From: Tahibacter harae
GTDB taxonomy: Bacteria; Pseudomonadota; Gammaproteobacteria; Xanthomonadales; Rhodanobacteraceae
Reading direction: 5' to 3'
Length of the DNA: 64,000 nt
NCBI RefSeq assembly: GCF_024437735.1
Contig: NZ_JANFQO010000003.1
Location: forward strand, 124,001-188,000
Shown: one piece after another, positions 29,832 through 36,688 of the stretch
Position numbering within the stretch: the stretch's first letter is position 1
Layout: each line of letters starts with the position of its first letter
The notes under the pieces: generated by a model
Told to the model about the DNA's origin: nothing
Database searches by the model: none
What the model saw: only the letters and a program-made list of their open reading frames with translations
Program-made: the position numbers and the translations under genes

Positions 29832-30533
29832 TCAGAAATTCCAGCTCGCGGCTGCCTCGAAGCGGCTGCCGGCGACACCGGGAAAAATCCGTTCGGCGCT
29901 GTCGCTGGTCCAATGGCCGGAAGCGCGCAGGTCCACGTTTCCCAGGGTATAGATGGCCGAGAGCTGGGCGCGGCTGTAGCTGGCGCCGTAGGCATCGTCC
30001 AGGTCGTAGTGCGCCGCTACGGTCTCGAAACGGAAACGGTCGCCGAGCGGAAATTTCGCGCCCACTTCGGTGTATATGCCGCGCTCGCCGCTGGCCAGCA
30101 CATTCTCCGACCAGCCCAGCAGCAGCCACCAGCGCTGGTCCAGGGCGAGCGTGGCGATCACTTCGTTGTAGTCGAGATTCAGCGGCGCGCGCGTGCCCGG
30201 ATAGGTGAAGCGGGTCAGGTTGACATCAAGGTTCCAGCGCCCGGCGAAGGTGCGGTTCCAGCCGGCGACCAGATCGACCTCGGCATCGCTGCCTGCGGCG
30301 TCGCCGTAATCGACGCTGGAGCCCCACAGCGCGCCGTAGAAGCCCGAATCAAGCACCAGCCTGGCGCCGAGCTGCGGCGCTGCGTTGCCCTGGGTCTGCG
30401 AGATGCCGCGGAACACGTAATCGCTGGTCAGCGCGGCGGAGCCGCTGAAATCCAGCGCCTGCGCCGCGGGCGCCGCGAACACAGCAGCGGCCAGCACAGC
30501 GGCGCCGCGACAGTTGGGTGTGAAAGGAGTCAT
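29832..30533 (-). CDS. TorF-like outer-membrane porin (Gcw_chp type), first gene of the kdp run
   Basis: 233 residues from the ATG at 30533. A signal peptide ends at AAQA-LDFSG, followed by the start motif SGSAALTSDYVFRGISQTQG of the TorF/Gcw_chp family and a run of amphipathic beta strands ending in an aromatic residue (WNF), as in outer-membrane barrels. It is probably a small porin. It lies 42 bp before kdpF on the same strand, so it is likely co-transcribed with kdp, perhaps helping K+ cross the outer membrane; that role is inference. Confidence 0.82.
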   Translation of the reverse strand: MTPFTPNCRGAAVLAAAVFAAPAAQALDFSGSAALTSDYVFRGISQTQGNAAPQLGARLVLDSGFYGALWGSSVDYGDAAGSDAEVDLVAGWNRTFAGRWNLDVNLTRFTYPGTRAPLNLDYNEVIATLALDQRWWLLLGWSENVLASGERGIYTEVGAKFPLGDRFRFETVAAHYDLDDAYGASYSRAQLSAIYTLGNVDLRASGHWTSDSAERIFPGVAGSRFEAAASWNF

Positions 30534-30838
30534 TGCCACCGGCACATTTCCACTCCGGAATGGAGCGGGGAAAGTGTCCGGCGAAGGCGCGTAAACGGAC
30601 CAGATGCACGCGGCGGCCGGCGCGTAAACGCTGCGTAAAATCGGCATCGGACCCGCCTGTTCCGGCTGCTGCCGTGCAGGGCTCGGCGTGATGGTTCAGA
30701 CCGAATTTATGCGGCGGCGCGGCGCGAATGGCGCCGTCACGGCGAGCGCAAACGGAATGACTTATGTCTGCTCGCGGAATACCGCGCAGCGGCGGTTGCC
30801 AGGCCTTTTCGAAGCGGACGCTCCGGGCGCAGCACAGT
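30534..30838. promoter_or_regulatory. kdp-operon upstream region with direct repeats
   Basis: About 305 bp upstream of the porin-kdp run and also beyond the end of the caspase-like operon. GGCGCGTAAACG occurs at 30586-30597 and again at 30619-30630, a 33-bp (about three-turn) spacing, with a related GCGTAAA at 30633-30639. On the reading strand these are CGTTTACGCGCC, whose TTTAC core resembles the TTTACA half of known KdpE sites. No gene is seen in the region. Confidence 0.5.
30586..30639 (-). repeat. Two and a half direct repeats, candidate KdpE sites
   Basis: Two exact copies of GGCGCGTAAACG, 33 bp apart, plus a partial third copy (GCGTAAA) 11 bp after the matching core of the second copy. 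Spacing in multiples of 11 bp would put the sites on one face of the DNA. They lie about 55-105 bp upstream of the first gene of the kdp run. Confidence 0.5.
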
Positions 30839-32350
30839 TCAGCGGAGTTTTTCCTGGAAAATCGAAAGGGGGATGCCGAAGCTGTCGGCGAAAGCTTGCT
30901 CTTTGCCTTCGGCAATAGCGGCAACCACCTTCTTGAACTCCGGCAAAAACCGGGCTTCGTCCAGCTTCAGCGTTTCCGCCAGGTCGCGATCAGGGCTGCG
31001 CGCAGCGGATTCAGCGCGCGCCGGATCCGAACGATCCGTGGCAATGGATCGCGGCGGGGAACTATCGGAAAGTCCCGCAGCTGCCAATTGTTCAACGAGG
31101 CCATGCAGTGTACGCCGGGCCGAGTGCCGGCCCGGCGCCCATGCGAGATAAGGACCCGCCGCGCCGGCGGCCCCCGTGACGCTCCACAACCCGCGGCCTA
31201 TCCAGGTGTCGCCGTCGCGGGCGGCGCTGGCCTTCAGCACGTCCCAGCTCACGCGGAACATGGGCGGGCTGGAAATCGCGACCTGTTCCCTGAGGCGGCC
31301 GGCCCTCAGCCGCAACGCCGTCAGATCGGGAGCGTCCGGCCATTGCGGGTCCTCGTGGGCAAGCTCCTCCTGTATCGCCGCATAGGACTTCAGCCGCTCT
31401 CCCAGCCATCTTGCGCGATCCGGATGAAGCAACGCCGTGAGATTGGCAAGCACCTCCGCGACGATGCCTTCCGCACCGCCGGCCCGGGCTGCCGCATGGG
31501 GTCCCAGCTCATAGGCGGTATTGCCCGCCTCGCTGCGCGCGCGGGCATCCAGGAAAAGATGCAGTCCGGTAATCCCGGCAATCGGGTTGTCGTATTTCTG
31601 GTGCAGCAATTCGTCGACCAGACGGTCGCTGGTGAAGATCGCCCGGCCCCGTTCCAGCGCGCTTCTCGCCACTTCCACGGTTTCCCAGTGGTCGTGGTAG
31701 ACAACGTTGCTCTCCGGCCTGGCCATCTGTATCGAAACGTCGAAAGGCGATGGCCCATCCGCGCGCTGTGCGCGCAGAAAGACGCGCGTCTGCCAGCCCT
31801 GCGCGACCAGCACCGACTGGCGCGATACCCGCGATCCATTCCTCAGCTCCAGCACGAAAGGCCCCTGCGCGGGATCCGCGGCGATGGCGGCCGCCGACCA
31901 CACCTCCTCGCCGATCAGCGCGCTGTGCGGCGTGCTATCCAGTTTCACCGCGTGGCGTGTGCCCTGCCACGGAAAGATCGACGCGCCGGCAAAAGGCCTT
32001 TTCCTGTCAACAACAGCTGCGTCCCCGTGCGCCAAGACCAGGATGGCGGGTCCGCGGACTTGCTCCAGAACCTCGCGCGCGAAGGTTTCGATGCGGTTGA
32101 CGTCGCGCAGCATCGGCCCGATCGGCGCGATGGCGGAAAACTGTGTGATGAAGAGGTAGTGATCCTGGGCCCGCTCATCCAGTTCGACCAGCTGCTCGCG
32201 CAGCGCACCGGCGCGAACCACGCGGATCTTGTAAAGCCCGCGAGGCAGCTTGCCTCTGTAGACACCGACCGACCGCGCCACGCGGGTCAAGCTGGCATCC
32301 ATGACGAAGACTTCGGCATCGTTGTTGGTATAGACGGCGAGTTCCGGCAC
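30839..32350 (-). CDS. Unknown protein, last gene of the caspase-metzincin operon
   Basis: 503 residues starting with GTG at 32350, preceded by a good AGGAG site. The first 80 residues look like a beta-sandwich of PEGA type (VGVYRGKLPRGLYKIRVVR), similar in pattern to the C-terminus of the upstream caspase-like protein. The middle is mixed alpha/beta with no motif I recognise (FLRAQRADGPSPFDVSIQM, LGPHAAARAGGAEGIVAEV). The tail is helical (EFKKVVAAIAEGKEQAFADSF). There is no signal peptide or membrane helix, so it is likely cytosolic. It ends the operon 9 bp after the caspase gene. I do not know its function; it could be a substrate, adaptor or effector of the protease pair. Confidence 0.7.
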   Translation of the reverse strand: MPELAVYTNNDAEVFVMDASLTRVARSVGVYRGKLPRGLYKIRVVRAGALREQLVELDERAQDHYLFITQFSAIAPIGPMLRDVNRIETFAREVLEQVRGPAILVLAHGDAAVVDRKRPFAGASIFPWQGTRHAVKLDSTPHSALIGEEVWSAAAIAADPAQGPFVLELRNGSRVSRQSVLVAQGWQTRVFLRAQRADGPSPFDVSIQMARPESNVVYHDHWETVEVARSALERGRAIFTSDRLVDELLHQKYDNPIAGITGLHLFLDARARSEAGNTAYELGPHAAARAGGAEGIVAEVLANLTALLHPDRARWLGERLKSYAAIQEELAHEDPQWPDAPDLTALRLRAGRLREQVAISSPPMFRVSWDVLKASAARDGDTWIGRGLWSVTGAAGAAGPYLAWAPGRHSARRTLHGLVEQLAAAGLSDSSPPRSIATDRSDPARAESAARSPDRDLAETLKLDEARFLPEFKKVVAAIAEGKEQAFADSFGIPLSIFQEKLR

Positions 32351-32359
32351 GGCGTGCTC

Positions 32360-33373
32360 CTAGTCGATGTCCCGCGGAGTAAGCGCACCGATCTCGAACA
32401 GCCTGTCCACACCGTCGCCGCCGAGCTTGTAGAGGCCTACGCCCAGATCGAAGCTCACCCAGCCCTGGATAACCGGCGCCGTCTTCTGCAGCGGGCCGGG
32501 CGGACTGGTCAGCGTCAGCACCGTGCCGTCCGGTGCCAGGGTCCCGTCCTTGCGCCTGGCGCGTACGCGGTAGATCGGATGCGGGCGGATCGCAAACAGC
32601 ATGTCGTCCTCCTGCGGCACCATGGCGAACTGGCTCTCGCCTGCGGCACCGTCGAGTGCGCCGTTGCGCAGGAAATTCGCCAGCGAGCCCGAACGCACCT
32701 CGCCCTGGAGATTCGCCGCCGCACCGTTGAGGCCATTGAGCAGCCGCCGGGTGAAAAGCCCACGCACGGCGCCGCCGGGCCCGACGGCGCCTTCGTAGGC
32801 TTTGCGCCCATAGCCCGAGGCGAATGCCGTGAACACCCGGGCCGGCGGCGGCGGGCGCTCGGCCGTGTTGGCGAGGCCTGCGGGCCGGGTGCGGTTGTAT
32901 TCCAGCGCCTGCGTGCCGCAACAGTCCATCCACAGCACCAGTTCGTCGAAATGCGTCTGGTTGGCGAACCAGTCTATCCAGGCGGGCACTTCCAGATTCG
33001 GCACCCAGCGCACGCCGGCGGCATCGGCCAGGATCAGGCAGCGCGAACGCGGATCCGGCGCCAGGCCGTGGCCTGCCGCGTAGACGTAGAGCCGGTTGGC
33101 GACCTTGGGCGCGGCGGATTTCACGTAAGGAATGAAAGCCGCATCGACATCCGACACCACCGGGCGGGCCGTGTGCAGATTGGTCACCGCCCAGGGCGCG
33201 CCGTTGACACCGGTGGAGGTAATCAAGGTGACGTCCGCCTGGCCGACCTTGACCAGCCAGTCCGCCACATCCTCGGCATCCTGCACCGCACCGGCCAGGT
33301 CATTCGGCGAACTGCCGTCCGCGCCGAAGTTCGGATAGCTGCCTATGCCTATCACGATGGCCTGGTCCGCCAT
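32360..33373 (-). CDS. Caspase-like (peptidase C14) protein
   Basis: 337 residues. The catalytic His is H102 (YVYAAGHGLA) and the catalytic Cys is C152 in WMDCCGTQ, which aligns with the DCC(H/F)SG motif of metacaspases and prokaryotic caspase-like proteins. The C-terminal 100 residues form a beta-rich domain (ARRKDGTLAPDGTVLTLTS, VSFDLGVGLYKL). There is no signal peptide, so it is probably cytosolic. It sits 5 bp after a metalloprotease gene and 9 bp before the unknown gene. Proteins of this fold act in antiviral defence, regulated death or cyclic-nucleotide signalling; the exact role here is unknown. Confidence 0.8.
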   Translation of the reverse strand: MADQAIVIGIGSYPNFGADGSSPNDLAGAVQDAEDVADWLVKVGQADVTLITSTGVNGAPWAVTNLHTARPVVSDVDAAFIPYVKSAAPKVANRLYVYAAGHGLAPDPRSRCLILADAAGVRWVPNLEVPAWIDWFANQTHFDELVLWMDCCGTQALEYNRTRPAGLANTAERPPPPARVFTAFASGYGRKAYEGAVGPGGAVRGLFTRRLLNGLNGAAANLQGEVRSGSLANFLRNGALDGAAGESQFAMVPQEDDMLFAIRPHPIYRVRARRKDGTLAPDGTVLTLTSPPGPLQKTAPVIQGWVSFDLGVGLYKLGGDGVDRLFEIGALTPRDID

Positions 33374-33378
33374 GACGG

Positions 33379-34128
33379 CTAGCCTCCGAACACCGGGCGC
33401 AGGCCGTAGGCTTTGCGGATCAGCGCCTTGTCGGCCTCGCTCAGCACGGTGTTGAAACCTGCGGCGAAGCCGTTCCTGGTCCAGCTTGGAAGGATCGGAT
33501 ACATCATGATCGAGGCCGCATCGACATCGGTGCCGAAGATCTGGCCCGGGTCGTAGCGATGGAACATGTTGGCGTCGATCTTGTCGTCGCTCCAGCCCTG
33601 CGAAGCGCGCAGATCCTGGCGCACTTTCTCCTTGTTCCAGTCTATGGGCCTGGCGGGATTCATGTGTTCGTGGACCAGGCCCAGCGCATGGCCGAATTCA
33701 TGCAGCACGACAGCGCGGGCCTCGTCCTCGGGCAGCGCCATCGTCATCCATCCCAGGTTCATGGTGCGTTCCCTGCGGTCGACCGCCTGGGCGAAACGGC
33801 CCAGCCTGGAAAAACTGCCTATGCCGGGCTGGAAGGCGACACGGATATCGGCGCCGGCCGGATCGAGACCGTTGCCGATCCAGAATTCAAAACTGAAGTT
33901 AGCGCCGGTTTCCTGCGGCCAGGCCTGCGCCAGCGCGGCAACGCGCCGGTGCAGTTCCGGCGCGCCGTCCAGGAAGGACACGCGCAATTTGACGCCCCGC
34001 CCCCAGAACGCCGCATTGAGCAGCGCGGCACGCGCAACCAGTCCGTTGGCGGCGGGCGTCTGGAAGCCGATGTCTTCGAGACTGGAACAGAAGCGGTGAT
34101 CGTGGGGAATGACGTCGTTTTCCGACAT
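33379..34128 (-). CDS. Metzincin zinc metalloprotease (astacin/matrixin-like)
   Basis: 249 residues. The zinc motif HEFGHALGLVHEH (H143, E144, H147, H153) is complete, and the Met-turn appears as SIMMYPILPS (M208/M209, Y210). The N-terminus (VARAALLNAAFWGRGVKLRV) is typical of the short M12A-like or matrixin-like group. There is no signal peptide, unusual for a metzincin and in line with a cytosolic role beside the caspase-like protein. The gene is 10 bp downstream of the membrane-anchored gene. Confidence 0.87.
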   Translation of the reverse strand: MSENDVIPHDHRFCSSLEDIGFQTPAANGLVARAALLNAAFWGRGVKLRVSFLDGAPELHRRVAALAQAWPQETGANFSFEFWIGNGLDPAGADIRVAFQPGIGSFSRLGRFAQAVDRRERTMNLGWMTMALPEDEARAVVLHEFGHALGLVHEHMNPARPIDWNKEKVRQDLRASQGWSDDKIDANMFHRYDPGQIFGTDVDAASIMMYPILPSWTRNGFAAGFNTVLSEADKALIRKAYGLRPVFGG

Positions 34129-34138
34129 GGCGGCAGCC

Positions 34139-35074
34139 TCACAGGTCGCGGCAGCGATAGACGATGCGGTCTTTCAGCTCGGCGCCGAAACACTCGCTGA
34201 GCGGGAACCCGCCGCCGCCGTGAGCCGCCACGACCGGATCGGAACTGCCCCAATACCCCGCCGGCGCCCAGCCGCCGGCGTTCAGCGGTCCTCCGCTCAC
34301 GACGGCGAGCTGGCCGTCCAGCGCCGGCGGGGATCCGGCATCCGACTTCACGCCGGCGATGACGAACCGGCCCTGCAGCGCCGCGTCGCGTGCCGCGCCG
34401 GCGCCGGGCAGCCGCCTCCAGGTTGGATTGCGCTCCAGGCTGTCGAGAATCTGGTCGGAGGTTCCGGACAGACTGAGGCCGAGGTGGTGGGCCACTTCGA
34501 TGACGAAGCGGTTGCTGCCTTCGCGGAACGGACCGCCAGGCCCCGATTTCGACCACACATCGGCACAAACCTGCCGCACGCGCGTATCCGCGAAGCTAGG
34601 CAGGGAAAGCGTCTCCGGCGGCACTAGCGAGGCCGCCAGGGCTGCCTCGCCGGGATTGCTGCCGTGGAAATTCACGGTGACGCCCGGCGCGGCCGGCGGC
34701 GCTGCGGGCCGGGTCGGATCCAGCGCCATGGGAGCCACGGTCTGGCGCGTTTCGGTGCCATAGCCGTAGCCCTCCGCCGGGTTCTTGCGGCGTCCGTCGA
34801 GGAACCAGTCGAAGTCGAAATTCCGTGAGGCGTTCACCAATCCCAGCAGCACGAAGAAATAGGCGAAGAATCCGATGCCCAGACCCACGCCGTAGGCGCC
34901 GAACAAATCGCTGTTGCCCGGAAACAGCGACAGCACGGCCGCGCCGCCGACGACGCCAAGCAGCGTCGCTATATCGCCGAAGCTGATGTCGCCACGCCGG
35001 TAGCGGTTGACGAAATAGACATTCCAGCCGAGCACCGCGCCGAACAGCAACGCACCCAGAATTTTCCAGTCCAT
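34139..35074 (-). CDS. Membrane protein with a C-terminal NlpC/P60-like domain, possibly inactive
   Basis: 311 residues. Three membrane helices (about 5-23, 36-52 and 58-80) are followed by a Pro-rich linker and a C-terminal domain (160-311). That domain resembles cysteine-peptidase/amidase folds in which CNxFVxxVA holds the catalytic Cys and GHVAVV the His; here they read SNRFVIEVA (S187) and DGQLAVVSGGPLN (Q255). Both key residues would then be lost, making a pseudo-enzyme, but this alignment is from memory. A GAGGAAG site precedes the ATG. It lies between the small membrane gene and the protease genes and may anchor or sense at the membrane. Confidence 0.55.
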   Translation of the reverse strand: MDWKILGALLFGAVLGWNVYFVNRYRRGDISFGDIATLLGVVGGAAVLSLFPGNSDLFGAYGVGLGIGFFAYFFVLLGLVNASRNFDFDWFLDGRRKNPAEGYGYGTETRQTVAPMALDPTRPAAPPAAPGVTVNFHGSNPGEAALAASLVPPETLSLPSFADTRVRQVCADVWSKSGPGGPFREGSNRFVIEVAHHLGLSLSGTSDQILDSLERNPTWRRLPGAGAARDAALQGRFVIAGVKSDAGSPPALDGQLAVVSGGPLNAGGWAPAGYWGSSDPVVAAHGGGGFPLSECFGAELKDRIVYRCRDL

Positions 35075-35093
35075 GTCTGCTTCCTCGCCCCTG

Positions 35094-35363
35094 TCATTGC
35101 TCTGATTCGGCGCTGCCGCGCCGGGAGACCGAAATCGCCATCCGTACCAGGCCGGACACCGCCGCGCCGGCCGCCAGCCAGATCACGTGCCTGGCCCCGG
35201 CCAGGGTCCAGGTCGCGGCCGACACGGCCAGCGCGAACGCGCAGGCCCAGACGGCGAAATGCATTCGCGTGCGGACCGCGGCCGGCCGCTCGCGCAGGAC
35301 CCGGCCCGCGACCGTCAGCGCGGCAACGGCACCGATGCAAAGCGCTCCCGACTCAGACCACAT
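35094..35363 (-). CDS. Small triple-helix membrane protein, first gene of the operon
   Basis: 89 residues from the ATG at 35363, preceded by an AGGTGG ribosome-binding site. Three hydrophobic helices (SGALCIGAVAALTVAGRVL, HFAVWACAFALAVSAATWTL and VIWLAAGAAVSGLVRMA) span most of the protein. No family recognised. It lies 19 bp before the next gene and is the most upstream gene of the operon; a pore, anchor or holin-like role is possible but unsupported. Confidence 0.6.
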   Translation of the reverse strand: MWSESGALCIGAVAALTVAGRVLRERPAAVRTRMHFAVWACAFALAVSAATWTLAGARHVIWLAAGAAVSGLVRMAISVSRRGSAESEQ

Positions 35364-36007
35364 GTCCACCTGCCGCTGTGCCGCGCATCTGCCTTCGCCG
35401 GCTGCGCCGGCTGCGCCGCCGGCGAGCCCCTGCCGGAACAGCACGCGGGACGATGCCTTGTTCACCTTCGTCAACGCCGCACTTTCTGCGCGTTTTCCAG
35501 CTGTGCAGATTCCAGGTGCTGCCAGTGGCCGGAATCTCTCAGGCCATTGGGTCATCGCGCGCGTGAGCGGCGTGGGCCGACGCAAAAAAGACGCCGCCAG
35601 CCTTCTTCACGGAAACGATGCGCAGGATCTGAGTCGGGACGACGGCGGCAGGGAAGCCGCGCAGTGGCGCCGGACAGCGCGATGCCCGACGTCGGCAAAC
35701 AGTGAAGCCCAGGCGCGGTTGCGGTCCGCCGGGCCGGGAACGTGTTGCGCAGGCGCAGCGGCCATTTCCCGCCGCAGACACCCGCCGCACGCCGCAAATT
35801 GCACGGGCCGTCACGGCGCCAGCGTGCGGATCGCCGGCGCGTCTGAACTCCTGCGACAGCGCCGGCGCAGGCTTGATGTTCTTTCGCACCGCTTGCCGTC
35901 GTTACTTCACATGGCATGGCCATTGCTGTATCCGGCACCGGCGCAATCCCGCGTCATCACCAGGAATACGCACGGCCCTGCCGGCGTCCTGCTCATTGGA
36001 GGAGCAC
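35364..36007. other. Intergenic region upstream of the caspase-metzincin operon
   Basis: About 644 bp between divergent transcription units. No convincing gene. On the minus strand a TTGACG motif (35469-35474) could be a -35 element for the operon, without a clear -10 partner. On the plus strand a GGAGGAG ribosome-binding site precedes the phosphatase start. Confidence 0.4.
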
Positions 36008-36688
36008 ATGCCATCGTTTGACCCGACCCGTTGCCTGTATGCCTGCCGCCACGGCGAAAGCCTGGGCAACATCGCCCGCGCTGACGCGGAGAAACGCGGA
36101 CTGGCCGAAGTGGTCTGCGCCTATCGCGACGCCGATCTGCCGCTGACCGCCACCGGCCACGCGCAGGCGGCCTGGCTGGGCCGCCGCCTGGCCCAGCTGC
36201 CGCCGGCGCAGCGGCCGGTGCGGCTGATCTGTTCGCCGTACCGGCGCGCGCTGGAAACCGCCGACGCGATCATCCGCCACGCCTACGCCAACAGCCGCGT
36301 CGCGTTCTCGCTGGATGCACGGCTGCGGCCCAAGGCCTTCGGCGTACTCGAAGGCCTGACCCGCCGCGGCGTGCGCGAACGCTTTCCCGAACTGGCGGCC
36401 GAACGCGAGCGCGTGGGCCGCTTCCATTTCCGCCCACCGGGCGGCGAATCCCGCGCCGATGTGGTGCAGCGCGTCGGCGATTTCCTCGCCCAGCTGCGCA
36501 GCCGCCACGGCGGCGAACCCGTGCTGCTGGTGACGCACCAGATTGTCGTCAACGCGGTCGGCCATCTGCTGCTGGACGACGAAGGCGACGCCCTCGCCAC
36601 CGACGACGACGGCTGGGTGCCGAATGCGCGGCTGTATGCCTTCGGTGCGGCGCCGGTGCCGGCGGCGCAGGAAGTCGAAGCGGCATAG
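36008..36688 (+). CDS. Histidine phosphatase family protein (phosphoglycerate mutase-like)
   Basis: 226 residues with the phosphohistidine motif CRHGES (H15), SPYRRALETADAI, and a second histidine in VTHQIVVNAVGH. Members remove phosphate from small molecules or phosphoproteins through a phospho-His intermediate. A strong ribosome-binding site (GGAGGAG) sits just before the ATG. The substrate is unknown. Confidence 0.88.
   Translation: MPSFDPTRCLYACRHGESLGNIARADAEKRGLAEVVCAYRDADLPLTATGHAQAAWLGRRLAQLPPAQRPVRLICSPYRRALETADAIIRHAYANSRVAFSLDARLRPKAFGVLEGLTRRGVRERFPELAAERERVGRFHFRPPGGESRADVVQRVGDFLAQLRSRHGGEPVLLVTHQIVVNAVGHLLLDDEGDALATDDDGWVPNARLYAFGAAPVPAAQEVEAA

Follow-up and report, generated by a model that had tools for sequence, protein, structure and literature searches.

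How a caspase-like peptidase, a zinc metalloprotease, and membrane proteins encoded in one compact bacterial operon might work together is the question raised by a locus in Tahibacter harae. We analyzed a window of 64,000 nt (NZ_JANFQO010000003.1, positions 124,001–188,000, forward strand), to which all window coordinates given here are relative. An open reading frame (ORF) check confirmed five minus-strand ORFs at 30839–35363, with intergenic gaps of 19, 10, 5, and 9 bp in operon order, in agreement with the five same-strand genes and 5–19 bp gaps described by an earlier, sequence-only reading of this DNA. Comparison across genomes showed that three of the genes form a core with an exchangeable slot; we infer that the caspase activates the metzincin and, less firmly, that the system serves defence. 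The features are as follows:

35094..35363, minus strand: small membrane protein, 89 aa, with ATG at 35363 and three hydrophobic segments; an apparently optional add-on
34139..35074, minus strand: membrane-anchored protein, 311 aa, with a weakly DUF2304-like membrane domain and a degenerate NlpC/P60-like domain without Cys and His
33379..34128, minus strand: myroilysin-like metzincin, 249 aa, with zinc motif 143–153, Met-turn 206–210, Cys14, and a disordered linker 19–34 up to Arg33; probable pro-effector
34027..34032, minus strand: Arg33-Ala34 codons of the metzincin, the predicted cut site by alignment position
32360..33373, minus strand: caspase-like peptidase, 337 aa, with H102, D150, and C152 and a tail beyond the catalytic domain
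30839..32350, minus strand: protein of 503 aa that starts with GTG, has Ig-like and helical parts, and carries a short conserved motif around Pro494 near its C-terminus; probably an adaptor or sensor

A simple scan found no sigma-70-like promoter in 30600–36100.

The metzincin, caspase, and 503 genes occur in the same order in the window and in at least 16 other loci, from Pseudomonadota, Actinomycetota, Acidobacteriota, Planctomycetota, Vulcanimicrobiota, and Myxococcota. Because this order recurs so often, it is more than chance, and the core is almost certainly a real conserved module. The earlier reading called for a search for the five-gene set as a conserved neighbourhood; it is the core that recurs, while the full five, in window order, were found outside the window only in L015, where the small membrane gene is weakly supported. 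The metzincin gene lies directly before the caspase in all 17 core loci, and the caspase and 503 parts are fused in seven of them (L002, L004, L017, L018, L022, L023, and L026). These 17 metzincin-form loci comprise the window, L002, L004, L013, and 13 loci from a genome scan (L015, L017–L027, and L056). L002 (Sinorhizobium terangae) and L004 (Cupriavidus campinensis), identified by tblastn on plasmids, encode the metzincin followed by a single caspase-503-like gene. Since the window caspase as a query against genome contigs found no relative, the metzincin was chosen for a second genome scan; it returned at least 61 genome loci, and our own profiles detected a caspase and a 503 homologue after the metzincin in 13 of those listed. 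The 503-family profile A2 gave three matches in 398 genomes of the phylum, namely the window's own, L013 (genome G439), and L014 (genome G169), and the A8 profile, applied to 385 genomes of the class of G439, matched G439 itself and gave one weak match. The L013 locus carries the metzincin, caspase, and 503 genes and then a trypsin-endonuclease fusion.

Comparison of the loci further revealed that the first position of the core can hold another enzyme. An alpha/beta-hydrolase homologue replaces the metzincin in L003 (Mesorhizobium onobrychidis), L005 (Rhizobium leguminosarum), L006 (R. gallicum), and L014 (G169); it is annotated as an alpha/beta hydrolase in L003, and its Pfam matches in L005 and L014 are below the cutoff. 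In L019 and L022, the metzincin carries a GDSL lipase fused ahead of it. Because of this replacement in four loci and the fusion in two of 17, the caspase/503 pair seems, from gene content, to carry swappable effectors.

Analysis of the window metzincin placed it above the Pfam cutoff for Astacin (27.6 vs 22.5 bits), with the HExxHxxGxxH zinc motif at residues 143–153 and the Met-turn at 206–210. The three His and the Glu of the zinc motif and the Met-turn residues S206, I207, M208, and Y210 are invariant across 19 aligned metzincin rows. A hydropathy scan found no hydrophobic N-terminal segment in this protein or in the L015, L017, and L025 metzincins, in line with the earlier call of a zinc metzincin without a signal peptide. 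Myroilysins are its best solved relatives (profile E 1.6e-83; fold E 1.1e-22; template modeling [TM] score 0.95 by target length), and 5ZJK is the top fold match of its model, which has a predicted local distance difference test (pLDDT) score of 85.3. The protein resembles myroilysin (5CZW, 5GWD, 5ZJK) in fold, zinc motif, prosegment Cys, and a basic residue before the catalytic domain, but it shows no hydrophobic N-terminal segment and is encoded with a caspase. Myroilysin is reported to be kept latent by a cysteine switch; Cys14 of the window protein aligns with the prosegment Cys of myroilysin and is predicted to contact the zinc. The linker between Cys14 and the catalytic domain (residues 19–34) has pLDDT < 50 in the model. 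The shorter solved chain 5ZJK starts adjoining the Arg aligned with window Arg33, one residue ahead of the Ala that stands second after this Arg. A Lys or Arg lies exactly nine residues ahead of a conserved Trp in 17/17 caspase-linked metzincins vs 21/55 unlinked ones (Fisher 2.3e-6, kinship not corrected; fragments L070 and L084 were excluded from the residue count and the tree). Maturation at the corresponding place is also known for animal astacins, BMP1 among them. The switch Cys was considered as a hallmark of caspase-linked copies and dropped, since most unlinked copies keep it. Taken together, residue conservation and alignment support the metzincin bearing features of a zymogen activatable by another protease.

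The caspase-like peptidase scores below the Pfam cutoff for Peptidase_C14 (18.6 vs 21.4 bits) and matches the PADLOC 'caspase' model at 1.7e-8. H102, D150, and C152 are invariant in 22/22 aligned caspases (21 system members and the second caspase of L018), which upholds the earlier assignment of H102 and C152, and the tail beyond the catalytic domain is aligned in most rows. In metacaspases, an acidic residue binds the basic P1 residue; we take D150 to stand at the place of this residue, which would fit cleavage after Arg33.

The 503-residue protein gave no Pfam match and no enzyme match, and because of the latter it is likeliest a sensor or adaptor. Its model (pLDDT 76.5) comprises beta domains and one helical domain, followed by residues 427–465, where the prediction is poor, and by short C-terminal helices, and Foldseek returned partial Ig- or transthyretin-like matches only. 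Of its former description as an unknown with a PEGA-like start, the first half stands; the second found no Pfam support, the model suggesting an Ig-/transthyretin-like N-terminus instead. The C-terminal motif around Pro494 aligns in 14/14 rows of alignment A6 and 19/19 rows of alignment A8, and in L003 and L006 it precedes fused trypsin domains. A single protein of 1449 residues at L003:9085–13434 combines 503-like, trypsin-like, and phospholipase D-like domains.

Because the switch Cys and the basic residue at the presumed maturation site are both present in 17/17 linked copies, the caspase probably activates the metzincin. A caspase-controlled zymogen system is in our judgment the best explanation of the locus, held with slightly better than even confidence, and we give an even chance to its fuller form, a two-step cascade in which an Ig-like adaptor would hold an initiator caspase and this caspase would mature an executioner metalloprotease through release of the cysteine switch, the same pair driving the metzincin, the GDSL-metzincin, or the alpha/beta-hydrolase. 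The metzincin would be made in a latent form, with the conserved Cys14 plugging the zinc by analogy with myroilysin, and the 503 protein would hold and trigger the caspase as sensor or adaptor. Upon a trigger, the caspase would cleave after Arg33 at the end of the disordered linker, the propeptide would depart, and the metzincin would degrade cell or phage proteins, leading to cell death or arrest. In the window variant, the 89- and 311-residue proteins may tether or sense at the inner membrane, and at other loci the alpha/beta-hydrolase homologue or the GDSL-metzincin fusion would occupy the same slot. The two-protease cascade put forward in the sequence-only reading has thus gained a conserved core and a zymogen-like metzincin, while the cleavage of the metzincin by the caspase is the step that we infer.

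Several observations weigh against caspase activation of the metzincin. The switch Cys does not set linked copies apart (17/17 linked vs 44/55 unlinked; Fisher 0.056), and the basic residue also occurs in unlinked ones. Sixteen of the 17 linked metzincins share one 17-row clade with L016 (Shimodaira–Hasegawa-like approximate likelihood ratio test [SH-aLRT] 98, quick tree), so the residue counts are not independent. The L016 metzincin has Glu at the basic-residue place and no caspase within a stretch that ends 2.3 kb downstream at the contig end; the L056 metzincin, outside the main clade on a long branch, has Arg there, and the 503-like match of L056 is weak (1.4e-9). According to a review, the bonds cut during astacin maturation lie occluded while the enzyme is a zymogen, and the 5ZJK start presumed by alignment to mark the maturation site could be that of the construct rather than of natural maturation. 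The caspase-linked metzincin at L021:7800–8657 carries an N-terminal hydrophobic segment, a poor fit to a cytosolic caspase. Part of this evidence would suit parallel action, with the caspase/503 pair as one executor and the metzincin as another, each with its own triggers, and the metzincin maturing itself or through another host protease: 48 of the 61 genome loci listed have a metzincin without a nearby caspase, and unlinked copies keep the Cys (44/55) and the basic residue (21/55). We consider this unlikely, since the fixed metzincin-before-caspase order (17/17) and the swapping of the metzincin for another enzyme in the same slot fit shared control better. A reverse cascade, in which the metzincin, opened for example by Cys oxidation, activates the caspase or the 503 protein, could draw on the chemical opening to which cysteine switches are susceptible and on cleavage in the disordered 427–465 of the 503 protein. 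It is improbable, however, as the hydrolase replaces the metzincin in four loci with the caspase/503 pair constant, and the constant part is the likelier controller.

The purpose of the system is a separate matter, and defence against infection appears the likeliest, at somewhat above even. That the operon serves the cell's own stress response, development, or quality control by proteolysis, with no anti-phage role, is a less probable but appreciable alternative, which the surroundings favour. Pfam identified no defence-like gene among the seven flanking window proteins, which include KdpA- and KdpB-type subunits, Gcw_chp, a histidine phosphatase, a regulator, and an oxygenase and are thus ordinary. 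For the 13 linked genome loci, we also compared 84 neighbour ORFs with 87 of 126 control ORFs from 10 of 13 control loci (genes called by longest ORF; ORFs > 1500 aa and core-gene ORFs excluded). PADLOC at 1e-10 gave 73 families for linked neighbours vs 63 for controls, counted as families rather than matching ORFs, and the 25 families displayed were matched by two members each in the linked set and one each in the control; this rough comparison yielded no clear defence surplus. With the metzincin as query, nine loci were found in viral contigs, 0/9 of them with the caspase, a further point against the main reading. The proposal of phage defence or controlled death gained no clear support from these checks. 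What tells against an own-cell operon is the patchy occurrence (absent in 60/60 relatives; the three matches in 398 genomes of the phylum include the window), the swappable effectors, and a canu-like trio adjoining in L018. The 60 relatives searched for the 503 gene include seven congeners, and the similarity of the window to three congener stretches stops at 30643, 30473, and 30466, i.e., 196–373 bp past the left end of the operon; no empty site was demonstrated, the right-flank gene lying on a different contig from the left flank in G004 and G007. Action outside the cell, with the metzincin or the whole set secreted or injected against neighbours, would accord with the L021 copy and with the review that counts myroilysin among extracellular astacins. 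It is very unlikely given that the window, L015, L017, and L025 metzincins have no hydrophobic N-terminal segment, nor do the window caspase and 503 protein; over the full operon, the scan assigned three segments to the 89-residue protein, three to the 311-residue one, and none to the remaining proteins.

Comparison with known systems places the locus closest to canu (caspase-nuclease), an antiphage system in which a caspase, accompanied by a partner protein, opens a proenzyme effector; the caspase domain of CanA is followed by an Ig-like fold, and the effector is a metallo-beta-lactamase (MBL) nuclease (PMC12799240). The present system likewise joins a caspase to a partner and a presumed pro-effector; unlike canu as there described, the latter is a cysteine-switch metzincin or a hydrolase with its gene upstream. 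The caspases of the present system have a conserved tail, which may or may not correspond to the Ig-like fold of CanA. No MBL match was found by Pfam in the five window proteins, so the system is not canu; nor, by the tests made, is it EACC1 or VMAP. The five window proteins gave no EACC1 match, with the caspase reaching 26.4 bits against NCBIfam caspase_w_EACC1, far under the cutoff of 140, and neither they nor the seven flanking proteins matched VMAP, MoxR, or vWA. As in VMAP ternary and EACC1-caspase systems, a caspase lies beside a hydrolase and caspases go with exchangeable effector domains; the part of that survey consulted names metallopeptidases among the rare effector domains and as components of peptide-processing systems, and mentions no metzincin in the hydrolase slot (PMC7159879). 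The mechanism probably resembles that of canu, a protease taking the place of the nuclease pro-effector. Bacterial caspase-gasdermin operons offer a likeness of another kind, a protease releasing a death effector, and no gasdermin was matched by Pfam in the five window proteins. Our literature search, which covered subscription journals and bioRxiv little, turned up no work on a bacterial system that combines a caspase with a metzincin.

The 89- and 311-residue proteins are, judging by gene distribution, an optional add-on, as just two loci, the window and L015, were seen to have both genes with the core. Action at the inner membrane, suggested earlier for the whole operon, may therefore apply to this variant alone. 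Both proteins gave sub-cutoff Pfam matches only (DUF2304 at 0.011 for the 311-residue protein). The small protein has the three hydrophobic segments foreseen for it, and a similar 86-aa ORF precedes the 311-like gene at L015 6777–7055, with a score reached by 2/500 shuffles (weak support). The 311-residue protein is 46% identical to its L015 copy; compared with the L015 and L007 copies, which keep both residues, its Cys falls in a gap and its His is replaced by Gln. The earlier call of a degenerate domain thus holds, and membrane anchoring is consistent with the three segments; the NlpC/P60-like assignment itself is tentative, with weak matches (L015: CHAP 0.061). Small DUF2304-like proteins adjoin CHAT-domain proteins at L008:3110–6300 and L056:8026–11229 (same strand) and L009:5974–8653 (opposite strand); the CHAT match in L009 is slightly sub-cutoff, and the three CHAT proteins are ~30% identical. 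Because of this adjacency, the membrane-type domain of the 311-residue protein may serve caspase-related proteases as a partner in the membrane.

Other arrangements were observed around these loci. At L018:4421–7924 (Arthrobacter mangrovi), a canu-like trio of caspase, unknown protein, and MBL protein immediately precedes the metzincin and the caspase-503 fusion; the MBL protein matches LmuA, Avs1a, and RT-associated models, and the middle protein, a presumed CanB counterpart, does not match the 503 family. Trypsin-like and non-specific endonuclease domains are fused or adjacent near a metzincin or 503 gene at L013:9857–12004, L006:9028–12786, L016:4875–7772, and L029:8699–10543, arrangements that resemble nuclease-protease pairs of other immune systems. 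Proteins with an SFQR-like start are encoded at L002:10675–11172 and L020:11349–12296, both downstream of the system, and at L028:1613–2569, downstream of a metzincin without an adjacent core; the L020 and L028 proteins are 55% identical, and the L002 link is weak (0.002). In the window, the Gcw_chp gene at 29832–30647 stands beside the Kdp genes in a stretch conserved in the three congeners compared.

If the caspase does activate the metzincin, bacteria would kill the cell through one protease maturing another of a different kind, much as protease cascades do in animal cell death. The candidate is a concrete one: a cut site is predicted, the proposed latency mechanism is known from a relative, and the effector slot is exchangeable.

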